Part shown: piece after piece, positions 47,063-56,581 of the stretch
How positions within the stretch are numbered: the stretch's first letter is position 1
Layout of the letters: every line of letters starts with the position of its first letter
Origin: Pirellulales bacterium
Lineage (GTDB): Bacteria; Planctomycetota; Planctomycetia; Pirellulales; Lacipirellulaceae
Reading direction: 5' to 3'
DNA: 64,000 nucleotides
Assembly (NCBI GenBank): GCA_028279215.1
Contig: JANQOF010000027.1
Location: forward strand, 1-64,000
The notes under the pieces: generated by a model
Told to the model about the DNA's origin: nothing
The model's database searches: none
Seen by the model: only the letters and a program-made list of their open reading frames with translations
Made by a program: the position numbers and the translations under genes

Positions 47063-47321
47063 CCGCATCTATCACTTCGTCTCTCCCCAAAAAGTACTAA
47101 GCGCCTGCGGCTGTATCTAATTCAGTGCCGTCGGTCAATTGTGGTTGCTTTGCGCGCACAGTTTGTTCATTGAGACCAACCATGGCTTACACAGAACGTT
47201 AACAATCCGCACCCAAAAATCTAACAATCGCTCGCTAATCTTAACTCACCTTCTGCAATTCACATCCTACATAAGAACTATTCGACAAGTTTCAGTTCGC
47301 TGCCAACAGGGAGAATCACCA

Positions 47322-50300
47322 ATGCGTAAGCGATTCACGAAGACCCGCCGCGCCAACAAAGCTCGACGAAACGGACTGGCTCAAGGTCGGCGCATGACGA
47401 TCGAAGGATTGGAGCGACGCGAGCTGCTTGCGGTAGCGGTTTTCCAGCAGGGTCTGAGCGGCTACGAAGGCCAAGAAGACACGGTGCTTTACTCCCGCGA
47501 CCCGGACGTGAATTTCGGCACCGAGGGCTCGATCAGCCCTGACCAGCAAGATGCCAACGGGGTGCGACAAGGTCTGGTGAAGTTCGACGATATCTTTGGC
47601 GACGACCCGGGGCAGATCCCGCTTGGATCGACCATCAACTCGGCTGAGCTCGTCTTCAACGTGGTGAACGACTCTAACTCTGCAATGCAGATGAGTGCGT
47701 ACCGTATGCTCACCAATTGGAGCGAGGCCACCGCCACCTGGAATACGTTCGGCCTGATCGGCGGTGTGCAGGCTTCCGAGGGCGAAGCAAGTAACCTGCC
47801 ACCCGACGGAATCCTCTATGACCCCGATACGACGGCCGAAAACCCACTAACCGCGGGTCGCTTCGATGTGACGCGGTCCCTGGAGTTCTGGGCGGCCGGC
47901 TTCAACAACTTCGGTTGGATGATCGAGAGTTCGGCCACCAACGGTTGGGACTTCCGCACCAAGGAGTCGGCACAGTCGCAGCGGCCCATGCTGTCAGTCG
48001 ACTTCACCGCGCCGTCGGGTGGTGGGTCGTTCGGCTTCCTCGACATCGCGCCGACCATCTCCGAAGGTGGTGCGTCGATCACGCTCGAAGTGGCCCGCCT
48101 GGGCGGCACAACCGGTGCTGCTTCGGTGAGCGTCGCGGTTGCGGGCGACACCGCAACCGGTGGTGTCGACTTCGACGATTCGGCCATCGCGGACCTGCAG
48201 TTCGCGGACGGCGAAACGCTTAAGACAGTGACGATCGCCATCACCGACGACACCGCTCTAGAAGGCAACGAGACGTTTACCGTCACGCTTTCCGGCGCGA
48301 CCTTGACCGCCGACAAGGACGTGGCGACGGTGACCATCGGCGACAACGATGCCCTGATCAACGAGGTGCTCGCGAACATTTCAAGCTCTCTGGAGGATGA
48401 AACCAACCGCGAGTACGTCGAGTTGATCGGCACGCCGGGCGAATCGCTCGATGGCTACTACTTCGTTGTGTTCGAAGCTGAAGAGGAGGAGGCTGGCGGA
48501 ACACCCGACCCCAATGGCCCCGCGTCCGGTCTCAACGGTTCGGGAACGGGCGTTGCCGATCTAGTGATCGATCTTACCGGTCAGAGCTTCGGAGCCAACG
48601 GCCTACTGGTTATCACACCGATGAATTGGGCCTACACGCCTGATGCGGATACTGCGGTATTCGCCACCGCCCAGCTCGATGGCGCGGGTGGTGTGCTCGA
48701 AGACGCGTCTCAAACCTACGCTCTGATCCGCAGCCCGTCCGCTTTGGTCCAGGGCTTTGACTACGACCAAGTTGGTTTCTACGAGAACGAGACAAACCAG
48801 GCGTTCGGCGTAGTGACCGACATCAACGGCAACGTGATCGACGCGGTCGGTATCCTCGACCAGCTCCCGGCAGGTGCCCAGGTGATCGACAGCGTCGGCG
48901 TGGTGGAAGGCGGCGGCGGCGACCGCGACCGCACGCTGGCCGCTCCAGAGCTTGGCAACCCCGGCATCCACGTGCACCAGCCAACCCGCATCAACGCGGC
49001 TTCTGGCAATGTGACGTCCGACGCAGTCTCGCGTCGCGCCGGCGAGACGCAGCCTAACACGATTGGCGCTTGGTTCAACGGCGACATCGCGGACGGCGAC
49101 GATTCGTCCGGTCCGATCGCATACGAGAACGACACGTTCTTCGTGAGTGTCGTCACCCCAGATGGTGCGGTGCTCACGCCAGGTGCTCCCAACATCCTCC
49201 GCACCGTGTTCTTCAACCGGGACGACCAGCAGACGGAAGTCGCCGAGGCCGATGGCAGCGTGACTGTGACGATTGAGCGCACCGGCGATCTGAACGAGAC
49301 GATCGACGTCACCTACCGAACTTTCGACTTTGGAAGTGCGACCGAGGACGTCGACTACACCGGCGTAGAACAGACAATCTCGTTCGGCGTGGGTGAAACC
49401 GAGAAGGATGTTACGATCAACCTACTGCCGGACTCTGAAGCCGAGGGCTTCGAACGATTCTTGGTCGAGATCACCGATGTGGTCAATACCACGCCCGGCG
49501 GTGGCGGACAGTATCTTATCACCAACGGCCGCTCAACGGAGCGTGGGCCTGCCGACGGTCAGCCGACCAATCCAAACGGTGAGGCAGAGATCACTATCGC
49601 GGACGCGGACGTGCAGATCGCCACATTCCAGAACGGCATGAACAGCTACTTTGGCACCCAGGACGCGTACCTGGATGGCGAGCTGCGGTTCAGCCGCTTC
49701 GGGCAGGACTCCACGGTCGAGGTTGATCAGGTGAAGGGCGTTGGGGAAGATCAACCCGACGCGGTGCGGCCGCAGCAGGGCATGCTCGTCTTCGACGACG
49801 TGTTTGGCGCTGGCGTCGACCAGGTGCCCGAGGGTTCCAAGATTTTCGACGCGTTCTTGACAGTCAACGTAACGGCCATTGCCCCGGGTGCGGAGGTGAA
49901 CTTCTTCCGCATGCTCAACGACTGGGAGGAAGTCAACGCAACGTGGGATGATCCACAAGGGTCAGCCGGCGGTTCCATCTCCAACGGCGTCACGCCTGAC
50001 GGCATCGAGGCCACTTCGGCGCCGGACTTCTCGGTCGCGGACGCTGGGCGTGCGGGTCTGGTTGAAATTCCGATCAACGTAGACACCGTGCAGAGCTGGG
50101 CTAACGGCTCGCTTGAAAACTTCGGCTGGACAATCATCACCGACCTGGGCGAACTGTGGCGCTTCGACAGCTCCGAGGCGTTCTTGGTCGGCACTTTCCG
50201 TCCGGAATTGACGGTGTTGTACACCGATCCCGCGGCGGAAGAATCTGGGACCTTTAGCCTCTCCCTGGATGAGTACGTGGCCGGAGAAATCGGCGGTACG

Positions 50301-52175
50301 GCCACGGTCACCGTCAACCGAATTGGTGGCTCAAACGGCCCAGCGACGGTCGATTGGTCTCTCACCGCCGGAACCGGCAGCCTGGCAGATATCTCTGGCG
50401 CCACAAGCGGCCAGGTGTCCTTCGCAGATGGTGAGCTCTCCAAGACCTTCGACATCACAGTGAACGACGACTCCGAGATTGAGACGAACGAGACGCTCAC
50501 GATTTCTCTCTCCGGCACGGGTCTCGAATTCGAGCGTGATAGCGCTACTCTCAAGATCCGCGACAACGACTTCAACCCGATTGGCGGCGACCTACTGCTG
50601 AGCGAGATCTGGATCAACTCGCCCGGCAACGACCCACCGCATGAGTTTGTCGAACTGATCGGCGACCCCGGCGTCGCGCTGGGGTCGGTCTACTACGTCG
50701 CGATTGAGGGCCTCGTTGGTGATCAGACCGGGCGGGCTGAAAAGGTGATTGACCTTGGCGACTTCCAAAACGGCGCCAACGGCCTCACCATCATTACGCC
50801 TGACGCTGAGGACTTCGCATTCAACGTGCCTAGCGACACAACGCAGATCGACTTGCTAGGTTCCATCGAGTCGGAGAATGTGGCTAGCGAGAACGACTCC
50901 ACAACCTATCTGCTGGTCTACAGTCCGTTCACCGAGTTGACTACGACGATCTTCGACTACGACTGGAATGACAGCGGCTCGTCGGACCTGTTTGACATTC
51001 CAGGCGTCGAGATTATCGACTCGCTCGGCGTGCCGGTGGCGGGCGTGGAAGACCAGTTGTATGGCCCGAGCACCAATCGGGCGGCGTTCGCGAACTTCGA
51101 CCCCGAGGTCGACGCGGTGAGCCGCTCGCGTGGCAACACGAGCCGGAACTCCGGTGCCGCCTGGTTCGGCGGCGACCTGCAACCCGGCGGTGACGACTAC
51201 CTGCTGTACGAGGCCGCCGAGGCGTTCGGCCTGCCGGTCGATGGCGCTGCCCTAACGCCCGGCGAAGAGAATGTGGGTGATGCGAACGCCAGCCCGTTGG
51301 TTTCGCTGACCTCTGTCGCGGGCAATCCGGATGGGACACTCAGTCTTACGTTTAACGGACCGGTGAGCCAGAACAACCTTGGTGATGGTGGCATCACTGG
51401 CCCTGAGGGGACCGGGATCACAATAACCGACGACACCGGCACCGCGATCGTCGGCGTTGACTTGCTGCCGGTGGTTGACGGCTATTTCACCAATACGCTG
51501 ACGCTGTCGTTCACCGGCTCGGGAGCCACGAACGGTGGGTTGCCGGTCGGTTCCTACCAATTGAACTTGGTGGGTAACGGCTTGATTGGAAACGGCCGTG
51601 CTGTGGATGCGGCCAACACGTCTTCGAGCACCGGCAGCGACGCGGTGGTTGCGTTCAATGTCGCTATTGGGTCTGGCCCCGGCGACTTCAACAACGACGG
51701 CCGTGTGAACCTCGCCGATTATACGACTTACCGCGACAACCTGGGTGCTGCGGAGTCGGAATTGCCTGGTGGTGTCGGCAGCACGAATGGCTCAGGTGTT
51801 GTCGATACGGCCGACTACAGCCTATGGAAGTCGAGCTTTGGCGACGTTTACACCGACATCAGCATTCCGGCGGCGGCTTCGCTTGTCGTGTCCGAGCCTT
51901 CGCTTGCTTTGAGTGTCGAGACTGAAAGCGAAGTGCCCGCATCGGTGGCTGCCTTCGCTGAGCTTGGTGAGGACGAAGGCGTCGCTGCCGCGTTCAGCGA
52001 AGCAAACGTTGCGGCTAGTGCCGTCGATCAGACGTTGCTGCTACATCGCTGGGGGGGCGAGTTCGAGCCGAGCGGCGTCGACTTCGAGGGACCAAGCTCC
52101 GCCCAAGAAGACGGCGAAGGCGATAACAGTGACAGTTGGCACGACGCCTTGGACTCTGTGTTTGCTGGAGTCTAG
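47322..52175 (+). CDS. giant surface protein: LEPR-XLL start, DNRLRE, Calx-beta, lamin-tail-like and dockerin domains
   Basis: 1617 residues from ATG 47322, with a GGGAGA ribosome site. The N-terminus is basic with 'LERRELLA' (about 30-37), the LEPR-XLL-type motif of large planctomycete proteins. Domains in order: DNRLRE (about 40-230), Calx-beta (236-345), lamin-tail-like (345-553), Calx-beta (627-760), DNRLRE (765-970), Calx-beta (975-1085), lamin-tail-like (1087-1270), an Ig-like domain (1323-1446) and a dockerin pair (1452-1513, '[20 protein letters not shown]'). The DNRLRE/Calx/lamin-tail block is duplicated. Acidic, low-Cys, with no PEP-CTERM tail. It is probably secreted and surface-attached; a cohesin partner is not visible. 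About 100 further C-terminal residues are Glu/Ser-rich. Confidence 0.85.
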
Positions 52176-52414: not shown

Positions 52415-53572
52415 TTAGACCATCGGCTCGGGATGGCCGGATGGTTTATTCGAATGCCCACCCTGCAAAAGCCGAAAGCCGACGTCGGAACGGATGAATC
52501 CGAATAAGCTGGCGACAATCACTACCAGCACGCCGATGGCCAACGGGCGATTGTAGTCTTCGCGCACAAACACCGCTCCGTGGCCCGGTTCGATGAGTTC
52601 GCGGAACTCGGGCGCCGGCGGGGCGGGCAGACCGAACCGTTCCGCAAGATCAACTATTTGCACTAGGTTGATTACCGGTACGCCTTGATTGCTTAGCCGC
52701 GGCATTACTCCATCCAAATCGGTGGGCATTCTTACGGGCGGCCTCAGATTGAGCCCTTCGTCGAAGACCTTTTTCCCTACACTGGTGCCGGCCGACACCG
52801 CGCCGCCGCCGACATTGATGTAGCACTTGATTCCCTGGCGGGCTGCCTTGTCACGTATCAGGTCCATCCGGGCGTCCACCGCTCCAGCGAAGTCTTTGGC
52901 GGCGATCAACGGCAACTCGCATCGTTCGATCGCTTCCTCGATGTCGACCTTTCCGTCGGCCGTCAAGTTTTTGGCGCGGTCTTCTTCGCCGCCCATCGAT
53001 GCGGCAATACTGCGTTTCTCGATGATTCCCTGGTCGTACAGGTGTTTCTCCATGTCGATCCAGAGCAGTTCGGGTAGGTTGGCTCCCCATTCAGACGCCG
53101 CCCCGCTGCTGATAATGATTGGCTCGGCGCCGATCGCCTCGACGGCGACGATGGAGCAAATGTTGAGCGACGGGAACGACCCAGATAGGCCCAGGCCGAC
53201 GTAGTCGCCCTCCTTGACCCCGGCTCGCTTGAGCATGTCGACGACAACTGCCGCGAAGTTGGGATTGGCTGCGGTTTGTTTGGAAGGCAGCACCCCATGA
53301 ACGCTTGTGACGCTCGACGTGTTGACGCCAATCAGGCCGGTTTCTAGCGGGTCAAACTCTGGGTCGATTTCTTCCACCCGCTGTCGTAACTTCTTGATGT
53401 CTTCGAACGCACGCTGCGCCAACTCTGCGGCGTCTAGCTTGTCTTGGTAGTAGGGCTGCTGACGGGGTTCACGAAGCTGCTCGACCATCAGCATGCCGAT
53501 TGCGGACATTAGCGCGATGAGAATCATCGCTGGTCGCGATACCGCCTTGGGACGCCAGATGACTTTCTTCAT
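52415..53572 (-). CDS. pgsW: poly-gamma-glutamate system protein PgsW
   Basis: 385 residues. Membrane segments near both ends (about 16-31 'MILIALMSAIGMLMVEQL', and 345-362 'LAIGVLVVIVASLFGFI') enclose a large extracytoplasmic domain. The middle has strands such as 'EGDYVGLGLSGSFPSLNICS' and 'GIKCYINVGGGAVSAGTSVG' characteristic of the family found with pgsB and pgsC. Its exact role in polyglutamate synthesis or anchoring is not settled. It is the last gene of the pgsBCW unit, 113 bp after pgsC. Confidence 0.8.
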   Translation of the reverse strand: MKKVIWRPKAVSRPAMILIALMSAIGMLMVEQLREPRQQPYYQDKLDAAELAQRAFEDIKKLRQRVEEIDPEFDPLETGLIGVNTSSVTSVHGVLPSKQTAANPNFAAVVVDMLKRAGVKEGDYVGLGLSGSFPSLNICSIVAVEAIGAEPIIISSGAASEWGANLPELLWIDMEKHLYDQGIIEKRSIAASMGGEEDRAKNLTADGKVDIEEAIERCELPLIAAKDFAGAVDARMDLIRDKAARQGIKCYINVGGGAVSAGTSVGKKVFDEGLNLRPPVRMPTDLDGVMPRLSNQGVPVINLVQIVDLAERFGLPAPPAPEFRELIEPGHGAVFVREDYNRPLAIGVLVVIVASLFGFIRSDVGFRLLQGGHSNKPSGHPEPMV

Positions 53573-53685
53573 CAGTATGTGTTAAGTTCTTCGTGTTTGC
53601 CGCTCGAACAAGCTTGCCTCGAATGCCATTGTTTCGTCATTCGCTCCTAAGGCAACCTAAATGGCCGTGCGACTGGGTGCTAGTG

Positions 53686-54165
53686 TTAGTGCATGTTCAG
53701 CTCGTGACCAAAAATAAGCACGAGGATCAGCCGGATCACCACTGCCGCCGTCACCAGCGCACAGAGCGTTTCGACCCAGCCTTGTCGGTCGAACCAGATG
53801 GCGATCAAACCGGGAATGATGTATCCGATGACCTGAAATTCGGTTTGCTCGCTAGCGTAGGTTTCAACCGAAGTGATCAGTTCCATGGGGATGTAGTTGA
53901 ACAGAATTCGCACGAGATAGCCGACAAGAATCATCAGCACGGTACGACGGCGGCCATAGACGATGATGAATGTGCTCATCAAGTAGACGATTAAGTAGGT
54001 GACCAGCGCGGCAACGATGGTAAGCACCACGTCAATCGGACGGCTAAGCGCCAAAGCAAAGTAGCCCGGCACCACCATTCCCCCGGCCGCCAGCCCGAAG
54101 AGTTCGGAGAACAAGAGACTGACCGCCAGGCCAATGCCAATGGCAACGCTGAGAAGTTCGACCAT
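53686..54165 (-). CDS. pgsC: poly-gamma-glutamate biosynthesis membrane protein PgsC (CapC)
   Basis: 159 residues from ATG 54165, one base after the pgsB stop; CapC of Bacillus is about 149. About five membrane segments, with the family motifs 'FGLAAGGMVVPGYFALAL' near 25-42, 'YGRRRTVLMILVGYLVR' and the end 'GWVETLCALVTAAVVIRLIL'. PgsC joins PgsB at the membrane for the polymerisation and export of poly-gamma-glutamate. The start chosen removes a 52-codon extension lacking protein character. Confidence 0.88.
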   Translation of the reverse strand: MVELLSVAIGIGLAVSLLFSELFGLAAGGMVVPGYFALALSRPIDVVLTIVAALVTYLIVYLMSTFIIVYGRRRTVLMILVGYLVRILFNYIPMELITSVETYASEQTEFQVIGYIIPGLIAIWFDRQGWVETLCALVTAAVVIRLILVLIFGHELNMH

Positions 54166-54166
54166 G

Positions 54167-55363
54167 TTACTTGAATACGGTTTGGGTGCTGCGATTCGCA
54201 AAGTAGCGCACGACGTCGAGGCCCACGCCGCCGATGTTGGCCATGCCCATCGCGAGGGACGAGCGGCCGGACAGATCGATGATGATTTCGAAGATTTCCT
54301 CGGTGCGGCGGTTTTCGGCAAATACTATCTTCAGCGGATCGAGTCCTGCCTCGGTTGCCGCCTTGCCGAAGATATACGTACCGTTGCCGATCAACACGTA
54401 ATAATCGGCCGGCGCCCAATCGGCGACGATGCGGCCCAACTGGTGCGAGCGGTCGGGGCGGTCGGCCCTACAGTTAAACACCGCAATCCGTCGTTCGACA
54501 TCCGAGTAGCGCTCGAGTGCCATATTCCAGATCCGTTCAGTACTCTCCGGATCGTTGGCCGCAAAGCCATTGACGAAGTTGATGCGGCGGCCAAAGAAAT
54601 CCATCTCGTGAGCGGTCATTGCCCCTGGGTCGGGCTTGGCATTCCACATGCCCGTCAGCGCGGCGCCACGCTCGACTCCTAGATCGTCGCAAACGCGAAG
54701 CGCTAACGCGACATTTTCGGCGTGCTCGACATAGGGAAAGTTCACCAAGTCGAGCGGCGTGATGCGGGCTACATCTTCCTCGGTTACCGGAATGAGTTGT
54801 GTACCCCGATCGTCGCACACTTCTTGAAATATGTCTAAGTGGTCGCGTTCGGCGGTAAACAGCTTTGCGCCCACGGGAATCATGCCGGCCAGCGCCCGTG
54901 CCACGTCGCGCTCCGAGGGGCCCATCACGTCGAGATGGTCCTCTCGAGCGTTGGTAATCACTCCGTGGGTTGCTCGTACGATGCGATTTTCGCAGAGCCA
55001 CTGTAGGTGCGGAACGAGCGCCATGCATTCGAGCACCAGGGCCTCGGCATTGGCGTCGACCGTTGCTTCGACGATGCGCAGCTGTTCGATGATATTCGCC
55101 CGAGCTGGTCGAAACACCGGGTACTCGGTGCCATCGGGAAGAATCATCCTTGGCAAGGTGCCCGTGGTCTTGCAGCAGGTGCGAATCTCGCCGGCGCGCA
55201 TGCCCGCGGCAATCAAACGCGCGACACTCGACTTACCGCGAGTGCCGTTGACGTGAATGCGAGTGGCGATCTGTGAGAGCCGTTTTCGGTGCCCTATCGA
55301 TTCCACTAGGCCTGCCCCAGCGAGCAGCCCCGTGGTGGCCAACAGAATGGCAGCAGCGGACAT
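54167..55363 (-). CDS. pgsB: poly-gamma-glutamate synthase PgsB (CapB)
   Basis: 398 residues, matching Bacillus PgsB (about 393). N-terminal membrane segment (about 2-18), then the Mur-ligase-like ATP-binding fold: P-loop 'NGTRGKSSVARLIAAGMRAG' near 38-57, 'VLECMALVPHLQWLCE' and 'GVITNAREDHLDVMGP' near 130. These are the amide-ligase residues that activate the glutamate gamma-carboxylate with ATP. The start at ATG 55363 gives the expected membrane anchor. It leads a pgsB-pgsC-pgsW unit. The usual fourth gene pgsA (capA) is not found here, nor any depolymerase. Confidence 0.9.
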   Translation of the reverse strand: MSAAAILLATTGLLAGAGLVESIGHRKRLSQIATRIHVNGTRGKSSVARLIAAGMRAGEIRTCCKTTGTLPRMILPDGTEYPVFRPARANIIEQLRIVEATVDANAEALVLECMALVPHLQWLCENRIVRATHGVITNAREDHLDVMGPSERDVARALAGMIPVGAKLFTAERDHLDIFQEVCDDRGTQLIPVTEEDVARITPLDLVNFPYVEHAENVALALRVCDDLGVERGAALTGMWNAKPDPGAMTAHEMDFFGRRINFVNGFAANDPESTERIWNMALERYSDVERRIAVFNCRADRPDRSHQLGRIVADWAPADYYVLIGNGTYIFGKAATEAGLDPLKIVFAENRRTEEIFEIIIDLSGRSSLAMGMANIGGVGLDVVRYFANRSTQTVFK

Positions 55364-55542
55364 CGGGCTGGTTACTTTGGGGGGTAGCCGGAAGGGGCGA
55401 TTAGACCTGTCCTGCAAAATTTATCGGCAAAAAAGGGCTACTGCAAGCGGCGGTTTTGGGAGGAGTGCGTAGAATCAGGGAGAATGCCGCGCCGGCCGAA
55501 AGTCGACCCGCGCCGTAAGACAGGATAAAATGAAAGGGCAGA

Positions 55543-55609
55543 AGGACGGGGGGTGAAAATCCGTCTTCACGGAAGTTGGGCCTGGTGCTACAACCCCCTT
55601 ACGGCCCGA
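55543..55609 (+). promoter_or_regulatory. structured leader with possible pseudoknot upstream of the Cys-rich pair
   Basis: In the leader before ATG 55631: a stem AGGACGG/CCGTCTT (55543-55549, 55561-55567) competes with a stem TCCGT/ACGGA (55560-55564, 55569-55573); a further stem GGGCC/GGCCC (55578-55582, 55603-55607) encloses CCCCC (55594-55598), which can pair with GGGGG at 55549-55553. Two mutually exclusive folds fit a regulatory switch. No match to a riboswitch I know. Confidence 0.35.
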
Positions 55610-55630
55610 TCTATAGCTCGCGCATTGAAT

Positions 55631-56062
55631 ATGAACCGTATTTTGTCACGCCCGCTGAATACAATCCTGGCCCTGACGGCCGCGATGGGCGTTGCGCTTG
55701 CTGGGTTCATGGGCTATCCGCCATGTGAATGCACCACCTTCCACGAAGCAGCGGCGCGGCCGGCCGCCTGTCCTCACTGCCATTCAGCCGAGGCAAATCC
55801 TACAGACTGCCACGGTTCATCAGGATGCAGCGACGACGATTGCGGCTGCCCTTGCTGCCACGGATCGCCGGCCGATCAGCCATTGGTGGTGGAGACCGAC
55901 AACTCGATCGCGCCACACGACCTCGAGCATTTGCTGAATGCGCCTGCGTCTGACTGGTTCTCTCCACCCACCGCGACGATCGCCACCGGAGGTTGGCGCG
56001 AGGAGTTCACTGCGACTTCGGCGAATCTGCGCCTGGCGAAACTCTGTCGCTGGCTCATTTGA
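55631..56062 (+). CDS. small secreted Cys/His-rich protein
   Basis: 143 residues from ATG 55631. Signal peptide about 1-28 ('ILALTAAMGVALAGFMG'). The mature part starts with a Cys/His cluster: 'PPCECTTFHE', 'ACPHCHSAEANPTDCHG', 'CSDDDCGCPCCHGSPADQP', about 12 Cys and 6 His within 50 residues, then a more ordinary tail. The spacing fits metal binding outside the cytoplasm (Zn, Cu or similar), but I recognise no named family. The leader upstream is structured. The metallothionein-like gene starts 98 bp downstream on the same strand, so the two probably form one transcript. Confidence 0.7.
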   Translation: MNRILSRPLNTILALTAAMGVALAGFMGYPPCECTTFHEAAARPAACPHCHSAEANPTDCHGSSGCSDDDCGCPCCHGSPADQPLVVETDNSIAPHDLEHLLNAPASDWFSPPTATIATGGWREEFTATSANLRLAKLCRWLI

Positions 56063-56160
56063 CGTATTGGCGCTCCGCTGCTCGCTTGGGGTGGTGGTGC
56101 GCACTCATGGAAGAGCGACCGCTTAGAATACGTCTATCTTTACCTCAGGAGAATGGTTTG

Positions 56161-56514
56161 ATGAAACCTATGTTTGCGTTGATTGCGCTTGTGGCCGTAG
56201 TTGCCGTAGGCGCGTTTGCGTTCCGCACGGTGACTGCCGATCAGGTGGCGGTCGAAGGAACTTGTTGTTGCGGCGACGATTGCCCTTGCGAATCGTGTGA
56301 TTGCACAGGCGACAGTTGCTCGAATTGCGACTGCGTGGCATGCGATTGCCCGAACTGCGAGTGCGATGGCTGTACTGATGAGGCTTGCTGCAGCAAAGAA
56401 GGTTGCTGCAAGGACTCGGAGGCCACCTCTTCGGCGACGGCAACAACTGGCGTCTGCCCGTGCGAAGCATGCGATTGCTCCGATTGCGAATGCGACGTCC
56501 CATCGGCTGCTTAG
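56161..56514 (+). CDS. secreted metallothionein-like Cys-rich protein
   Basis: 117 residues from ATG 56161, with a CAGGAG ribosome site. Signal peptide about 1-28 ('ALIALVAVVAVGAFAFRTVTA'). The mature chain has 25 cysteines among about 88 residues, mostly in CxC, CC and CxxC units: 'CCCGDDCPCESCDC', 'CSNCDCVACDCPNCECDGC', then a Ser/Thr linker and a second short cluster 'CPCEACDCSDCECD'. There is no aromatic or His-rich core, which is the signature of metal-thiolate cluster proteins. Unlike known bacterial metallothioneins it is exported. A strong terminator follows 30 bp later. Confidence 0.78.
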   Translation: MKPMFALIALVAVVAVGAFAFRTVTADQVAVEGTCCCGDDCPCESCDCTGDSCSNCDCVACDCPNCECDGCTDEACCSKEGCCKDSEATSSATATTGVCPCEACDCSDCECDVPSAA

Positions 56515-56543
56515 TCGGCTAGTCGTCGAACTTTGAAACCTAC

Positions 56544-56581
56544 ACAGCCCGCCGAGTTGTTACACTCGGCGGGCTGTTTTT
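56544..56581 (+). terminator. rho-independent terminator after the Cys-rich pair
   Basis: Perfect 14-bp stem (56544-56557 and 56564-56577, ACAGCCCGCCGAGT/ACTCGGCGGGCTGT), loop TGTTAC, then TTTTT (56577-56581). Confidence 0.9.

Follow-up and report, generated by a model that had tools for sequence, protein, structure and literature searches.

A candidate metal-sensing leader gene precedes a putative exported metallothionein-like protein in Pirellulales

The window analysed here, 64,000 nucleotides of DNA from a bacterium of the order Pirellulales, family Lacipirellulaceae, carries two short genes for Cys-rich proteins in tandem, designated ORF1 and ORF2. Judging from sequence comparisons, we think it rather probable that ORF1 is a cis-acting metal-sensing leader gene, operating in the mode of CutF and CruR, and that ORF2 is its output, a putative exported metallothionein-like metal scavenger. 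A wider proposal is more tentative and could well be wrong: that ORF1-type leaders form a new class of metal-sensing arrest peptide in Pirellulales, which would halt the ribosome at its own stop codon, hold its metal site on a tether of about 70 residues, respond to periplasmic copper or silver, and serve two unrelated outputs.

Metal sensing by a nascent exported protein has been described in two proteobacterial cases, CutF (PMC9973294) and CruR (PMC9426467). Both are DUF2946 proteins with proline-type ends, and in both the spacing from Cys to stall motif is kept within 1-2 residues (PMC9973294, PMC9426467), while a later paper points out that the arrest itself lacks direct demonstration for either (PMC10987492). 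A few DUF2946 homologs in Planctomycetes are mentioned in the CruR paper (PMC9426467). Arrest peptides that act at a stop codon include those ending NSP-stop, NAP-stop, and DGMK-stop (PMC10987492), as well as TnaC (discussed in PMC9973294); in the known cases, it is the stop codon that occupies the A site during arrest.

Organization of the unit

The features of the unit, all on the forward strand, are as follows.

55503..55531, weak candidate promoter TCGACC-17-TAAAAT, 5' of ORF1 (consensus match only)
55566-55594, second weak promoter candidate TTCACG-17-TACAAC, found by eye, with its -10 at 55589-55594
55631..56062, ORF1: 143 aa, 11 Cys, signal-like hydrophobic N-terminus, Cys/His clusters, variable spacer, conserved C-terminus
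55841..55858, CGCPCC (residues 71-76), the last of the Cys clusters in ORF1, with its final CC 68 residues from the C-terminus
56042..56062, codons of the ORF1 C-terminal motif L-C-R-W-L-I-stop, a candidate ribosome-arrest sequence
56063..56160, ORF1-ORF2 intergenic region, in which a large stem is predicted, beginning at the ORF1 stop codon and ending 5' of the ORF2 ribosome-binding site
56146..56152, ORF2 ribosome-binding site CAGGAGA, predicted to be partly masked by a local hairpin (P paired 0.62)
56161..56514, ORF2: 117 aa, 25 Cys, hydrophobic N-terminus, metallothionein-like
56544-56577, 14-bp stem of the intrinsic terminator closing the unit, with a T-run to 56582

An earlier note, made from the letters of the window, had described two exported Cys-rich proteins with signal peptides in tandem and a 14-bp terminator behind them; both encoded proteins do have hydrophobic N-termini. 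Both proteins are kept in relatives, and the terminator is present as described; of the 16 loci examined, nearly all have a similar hairpin with a T-run 3' of ORF2. A -10 element of TACAAC or TATAAG type was seen by eye at comparable distance in two relatives from the same genus. PADLOC returned no match.

A family of metallothionein-like proteins

Within the family, 18 of 43 genomes have an ORF2 homolog; across the order, 23 of the 296 genomes sampled do. An alignment of 13 sequences over 43-47 aligned residues shows a core of the form CCCGxxCxCxxCxCx4CxxCxCxxCxCxxCxC, in which 15 Cys residues are invariant; the conservation of the Cys pattern that had been set as a check on the earlier note is thereby found. 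As in bacterial and plant metallothioneins (e.g. Pfam Metallothio_2), the protein is short and very Cys-rich, with a conserved array of CxC and CxxC repeats. It differs from them in its probable export, suggested by the hydrophobic N-terminus, and in that the ORF2 protein of the window belongs to no Pfam or NCBIfam family. Only one of 14 ORF2 relatives matched the plant-type Metallothio_2 model, and weakly (E 0.0053). No related structure was found in the PDB, and a search for distant relatives with the trimmed ORF2 alignment led to only three named loci. In one relative from the same genus (L003:2021-2974), repeats have enlarged the ORF2 counterpart to a length of 317 aa and a total of 65 Cys.

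The earlier note had read the unit as serving metal handling through an exported metallothionein-like protein. This reading is well supported, both by the Cys pattern and by a sister class of ORF1, described below, that lies before CusB genes.

A divergent first gene with a conserved end

An ORF1-type gene lies 74-220 nt 5' of ORF2, in the same orientation, in all 23 testable loci, that is, loci in which both genes are readable and none of which came from the motif search described below; L003 entered this set through ORF1 rather than ORF2, and one further ORF2 locus, cut by a contig end, stands outside it. This gene order spans four families of the order. The ORF1 proteins themselves have little in common beyond their Cys clusters and extreme C-terminus, and only 3 of 59 genomes gave a relative when searched directly with ORF1. 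Membership in DUF2946 was ruled out for ORF1, which does not match the profile (PF11162); genomes of the same family do have PF11162 matches, at other loci.

The proteins end in L-[CSG]-[VIR]-W-x-[NI]-stop. Trp occupies position -3 from the stop in 23 of the 23 loci gathered independently of the motif and in 55 of 55 overall. At the remaining positions, the 23 loci have mostly Leu at -6, Cys, Ser, or Gly at -5, mostly Val at -4, and mostly Asn or Ile at -1. When sequences are anchored at the C-terminus, the final six residues share an identity of 0.56 and the six before them 0.32; past residue 12 the value is 0.08-0.12. The motif is encoded by varying synonymous codons, and each of the three stop codons occurs after it, which indicates that selection acts on the peptide. 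The ending in the window, LCRWLI, is a divergent variant of its genus. Proline-rich or RAPP-type C-terminal motifs are absent from the ORF1 family, with its consensus L-C-V-W-x-[N/I]-stop; a PP pair about 14-16 residues before the end occurs in some loci and is absent in the window.

We also ran a degenerate pattern encoding L-[C/S]-V-W-x-[N/I]-stop against the DNA of 43 genomes, using the reversed pattern as control, and obtained 44 places versus 18 for the control. Twelve of 20 inspected places lie at the end of an ORF that is Cys-rich and has a hydrophobic N-terminus; five of these leader ORFs precede metallothionein-like genes, seven precede CusB/CusA genes, and none lies elsewhere. The other eight places lack a Cys-rich leader ORF and represent chance. 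The five metallothionein loci added in this way were selected by the motif itself and so are not independent evidence for it; the 23 are. A profile of the C-terminus only, being too short, gave noise across the phylum.

The distance from the last Cys cluster to the C-terminus is held within narrow limits, at 65-75 residues in the metallothionein class (70.9 +/- 2.35, 28 loci) and 67-70 residues in the efflux class (68.6 +/- 0.74, 27 loci), while the length of the Cys region varies far more (sd 10 and 14). Identity within the spacer of the metallothionein class, 0.229 versus 0.208 for shuffled sequences, is no better than shuffled. A spacer kept in length and free in sequence is what would be expected of a nascent-chain sensor whose metal site has to be held a defined number of residues away from the ribosome.

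A second class before efflux genes

A profile for the efflux class identifies 27 loci in two families, each before a gene for a CusB-type adaptor, and all 27 proteins end in [L/F]-[C/S/G]-[V/I]-W-x-[I/L]-stop. The seven members used to build the profile belong to no Pfam family, DUF2946 included. Across the phylum, the profile found one marginal partial match. Since this sister class of ORF1 precedes CusB-type efflux genes, copper or silver would be the likeliest signal.

No conserved RNA fold was found in the gap between leader and CusB gene (alifold -3.9 and -0.8 kcal/mol). Several efflux-class loci of one family share a stretch resembling CCGGTGCGCGC just 3' of the stop codon of the leader ORF. 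Loci L111-L113, L120, L121, L123, L125, and L131-L157 have Cys-rich leaders ending in LCVWRI-stop or LCIWRI-stop before CusB/CusA-type genes.

RNA pairing at the ORF1-ORF2 junction

Across the 23 loci, pairing between the ORF2 ribosome-binding site and the final 60 nt of ORF1 has a mean probability of 0.50, versus 0.18 in synonymous shuffles (z 6.5). The excess holds after averaging within genera (z 6.0) and recurs in five loci found later (0.46 versus 0.16, p 0.006). Duplexes between an ORF1 tail and its own ribosome-binding site are also stronger than those obtained by permutation between loci (p 0.00035). The window differs from most of its relatives, its ribosome-binding site having a probability of only 0.01 of pairing with the ORF1 tail; the fold of its intergenic region alone is unexceptional (z -0.77).

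With a ribosome placed on the ORF1 stop codon, opening the site costs on average 4.5 kcal/mol instead of 6.0, with a drop of at least 1.5 in only 9 of 28 loci; in the window the cost hardly changes, from 2.3 to 1.8 kcal/mol. The pairing test on the efflux class, made on seven loci with uncertain start codons, was not significant (p 0.16). The RNA step is thus supported only at the level of the whole metallothionein class; the window locus is not a clear case, and the seven efflux loci do not show the pairing.

Proposed mechanism

In the mechanism we propose, ORF1 would reach the Sec translocon during its synthesis, as its N-terminus suggests. Once the ribosome has arrived at the stop codon of ORF1, about 70 residues separate the peptidyl-transferase centre from the last Cys cluster, a length that could span exit tunnel and translocon and, if the presumed topology is right, bring the cluster to the periplasmic face. 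The C-terminal L-C-V-W-x-N/I-stop may slow or arrest termination, and metal bound to the Cys clusters would prolong or relieve this arrest, the direction being proposed by analogy with CutF. A ribosome held at the end of ORF1 would keep the structure at the ORF2 ribosome-binding site open, such that ORF2 is translated when metal is present; pairing at this step is seen statistically for the class, not for the window locus. The ORF2 product would then be exported and bind metal.

We prefer this CutF-like design to a structural partner or plain coupling because it accounts together for an exported Cys-rich leader, a fixed tether, a peptide anchored at the stop codon, and a hidden ribosome-binding site. 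Several observations count against it: the LCRWLI ending of the window is divergent, the motif lacks prolines of the CutF/CruR type, pairing in the window has a probability of 0.01 and a ribosome on the ORF1 stop hardly alters access to the site there, only 9 of 28 loci show a drop of at least 1.5 kcal/mol, and pairing in the efflux class is not significant.

Alternative explanations

The earlier note had seen in ORF1 a Cys/His-rich partner of the metallothionein-like protein. A Cys-rich protein of exported type is indeed encoded there, but a role as regulatory leader gene is more probable than one as second scavenger: the C-terminus and the length of the spacer are under constraint in a protein that otherwise drifts in sequence, and RNA pairing across the class is found between ORF1 and ORF2, not 5' of ORF1. 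A stable periplasmic metal-binding protein or metallochaperone, with a C-terminus that docks on a partner and only incidental coupling, would explain why ORF1 is exported, Cys/His-rich, and always beside metal-handling genes, its company with metallothionein and efflux genes then reflecting related functions. A docking motif, however, need not sit exactly at the stop codon, nor does docking call for a spacer of 65-75 residues without conserved sequence, and the RNA pairing is above synonymous expectation; we regard this explanation as unlikely. That same pairing of ORF1 tail with ORF2 ribosome-binding site is what ordinary translational coupling predicts, translation of ORF1, as first gene of a metal operon, merely opening the site with no metal-dependent arrest. 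Coupling of this kind leaves unexplained the stop-anchored motif, its reuse before efflux genes, and the fixed distance from Cys to end, and we give it still less credence than the metallochaperone.

Control of the unit by a metal-responsive RNA switch 5' of ORF1, the model put forward in the earlier note, is very improbable. Two alternative stems can indeed be drawn in 55540-55610, but no more than by chance: the leader at 55530-55630 folds at -27.9 kcal/mol, compared with -30.3 +/- 3.5 for shuffled sequences (z +0.68). Rfam has no match to the leader at the gathering threshold, and relaxing the threshold yields only ylbH at 12 bits, a chance match. Nor was conservation of the leader, a further check on the note, found across three loci of the genus, the window and two relatives that hold ORF1. 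On these results we reject the leader as a riboswitch. If the second promoter candidate is used, moreover, its possible -10 at 55589-55594 would leave most of the proposed switch outside the transcript.

Comparison with known systems

The leader gene reading of ORF1 gains from two traits shared with CutF and CruR, namely the fixed Cys-to-motif distance and the position of a first gene directly 5' of metal genes. CutF of Rhodobacter capsulatus (PMC9973294) is likewise a small exported first-gene protein in which a Cys metal motif keeps a fixed spacing to the conserved C-terminus. The metal-defence gene that follows it has its ribosome-binding site hidden in RNA structure, a trait that has support across the metallothionein class of ORF1 loci but is weak in the window locus and in the efflux class. 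Unlike CutF, ORF1 is not a DUF2946 protein, ends in L-C-V-W-x-N/I-stop rather than a proline-rich sequence, has several Cys clusters and a spacing of about 70 rather than 45 residues, and precedes a metallothionein-like gene or a CusB-type efflux gene as its output. CruR of Bordetella pertussis (PMC9426467) is also an upstream ORF of exported type, with a C-terminal motif at fixed Cys spacing, and controls the next gene by copper; it has a RAPP motif and a Rho-dependent copper shut-off, whereas ORF1 has a Trp motif at the stop. With the stop-codon arrest peptides ORF1 shares conserved residues directly before the stop codon, but the known ones sense export status or tryptophan, arrest by ORF1 is putative, and none with Trp at -3 was found among them.

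Within the literature covered, which left most subscription journals and preprints outside its scope and so leaves priority uncertain, we found no description of the motif, of planctomycete metal-sensing leaders like ORF1, or of an exported planctomycete metallothionein. If the proposal is correct, sensing of metal by a nascent chain has a second sequence class, in another phylum and with a distinct stop-anchored motif, and the strategy has evolved in more than one form, here with a measurable tether length and two alternative outputs. An exported metallothionein-like protein would likewise join bacterial metal defence. The ORF1 ending is a short arrest-sequence candidate that can be tested directly.

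Two genomes of one Lacipirellulaceae genus (loci L160 and L163) encode small exported DUF2946-like proteins that end in RGPPLA-stop, directly before pseudopilin-like genes with His-rich stretches. These are candidates for RAPP-like arrest separate from ORF1, and the Trp class and a RAPP-like class therefore appear to coexist in Lacipirellulaceae.

Genomic neighborhood

In seven loci (L007, L008, L013, L015, L017, L018, L020), the gene 5' of the unit is presumably purD, which it resembles in C-terminal sequence. The unit in the window stands behind a capB-like gene, as opposed to the purD-like gene of several other genera, and these different upstream neighbors suggest that the unit may have moved. 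The adjoining unit on the reverse strand (52415-55417) is a probable cluster for capsule or poly-gamma-glutamate synthesis, consisting of a CapB-like gene of Mur-ligase type (Mur_ligase_M), CapC (PF14102, E 2e-34), and a third gene for a membrane-anchored protein without a Pfam match. Beyond it, 47139-52175 on the forward strand encodes a 1678-aa protein with three Calx-beta matches and one CBM96 match.
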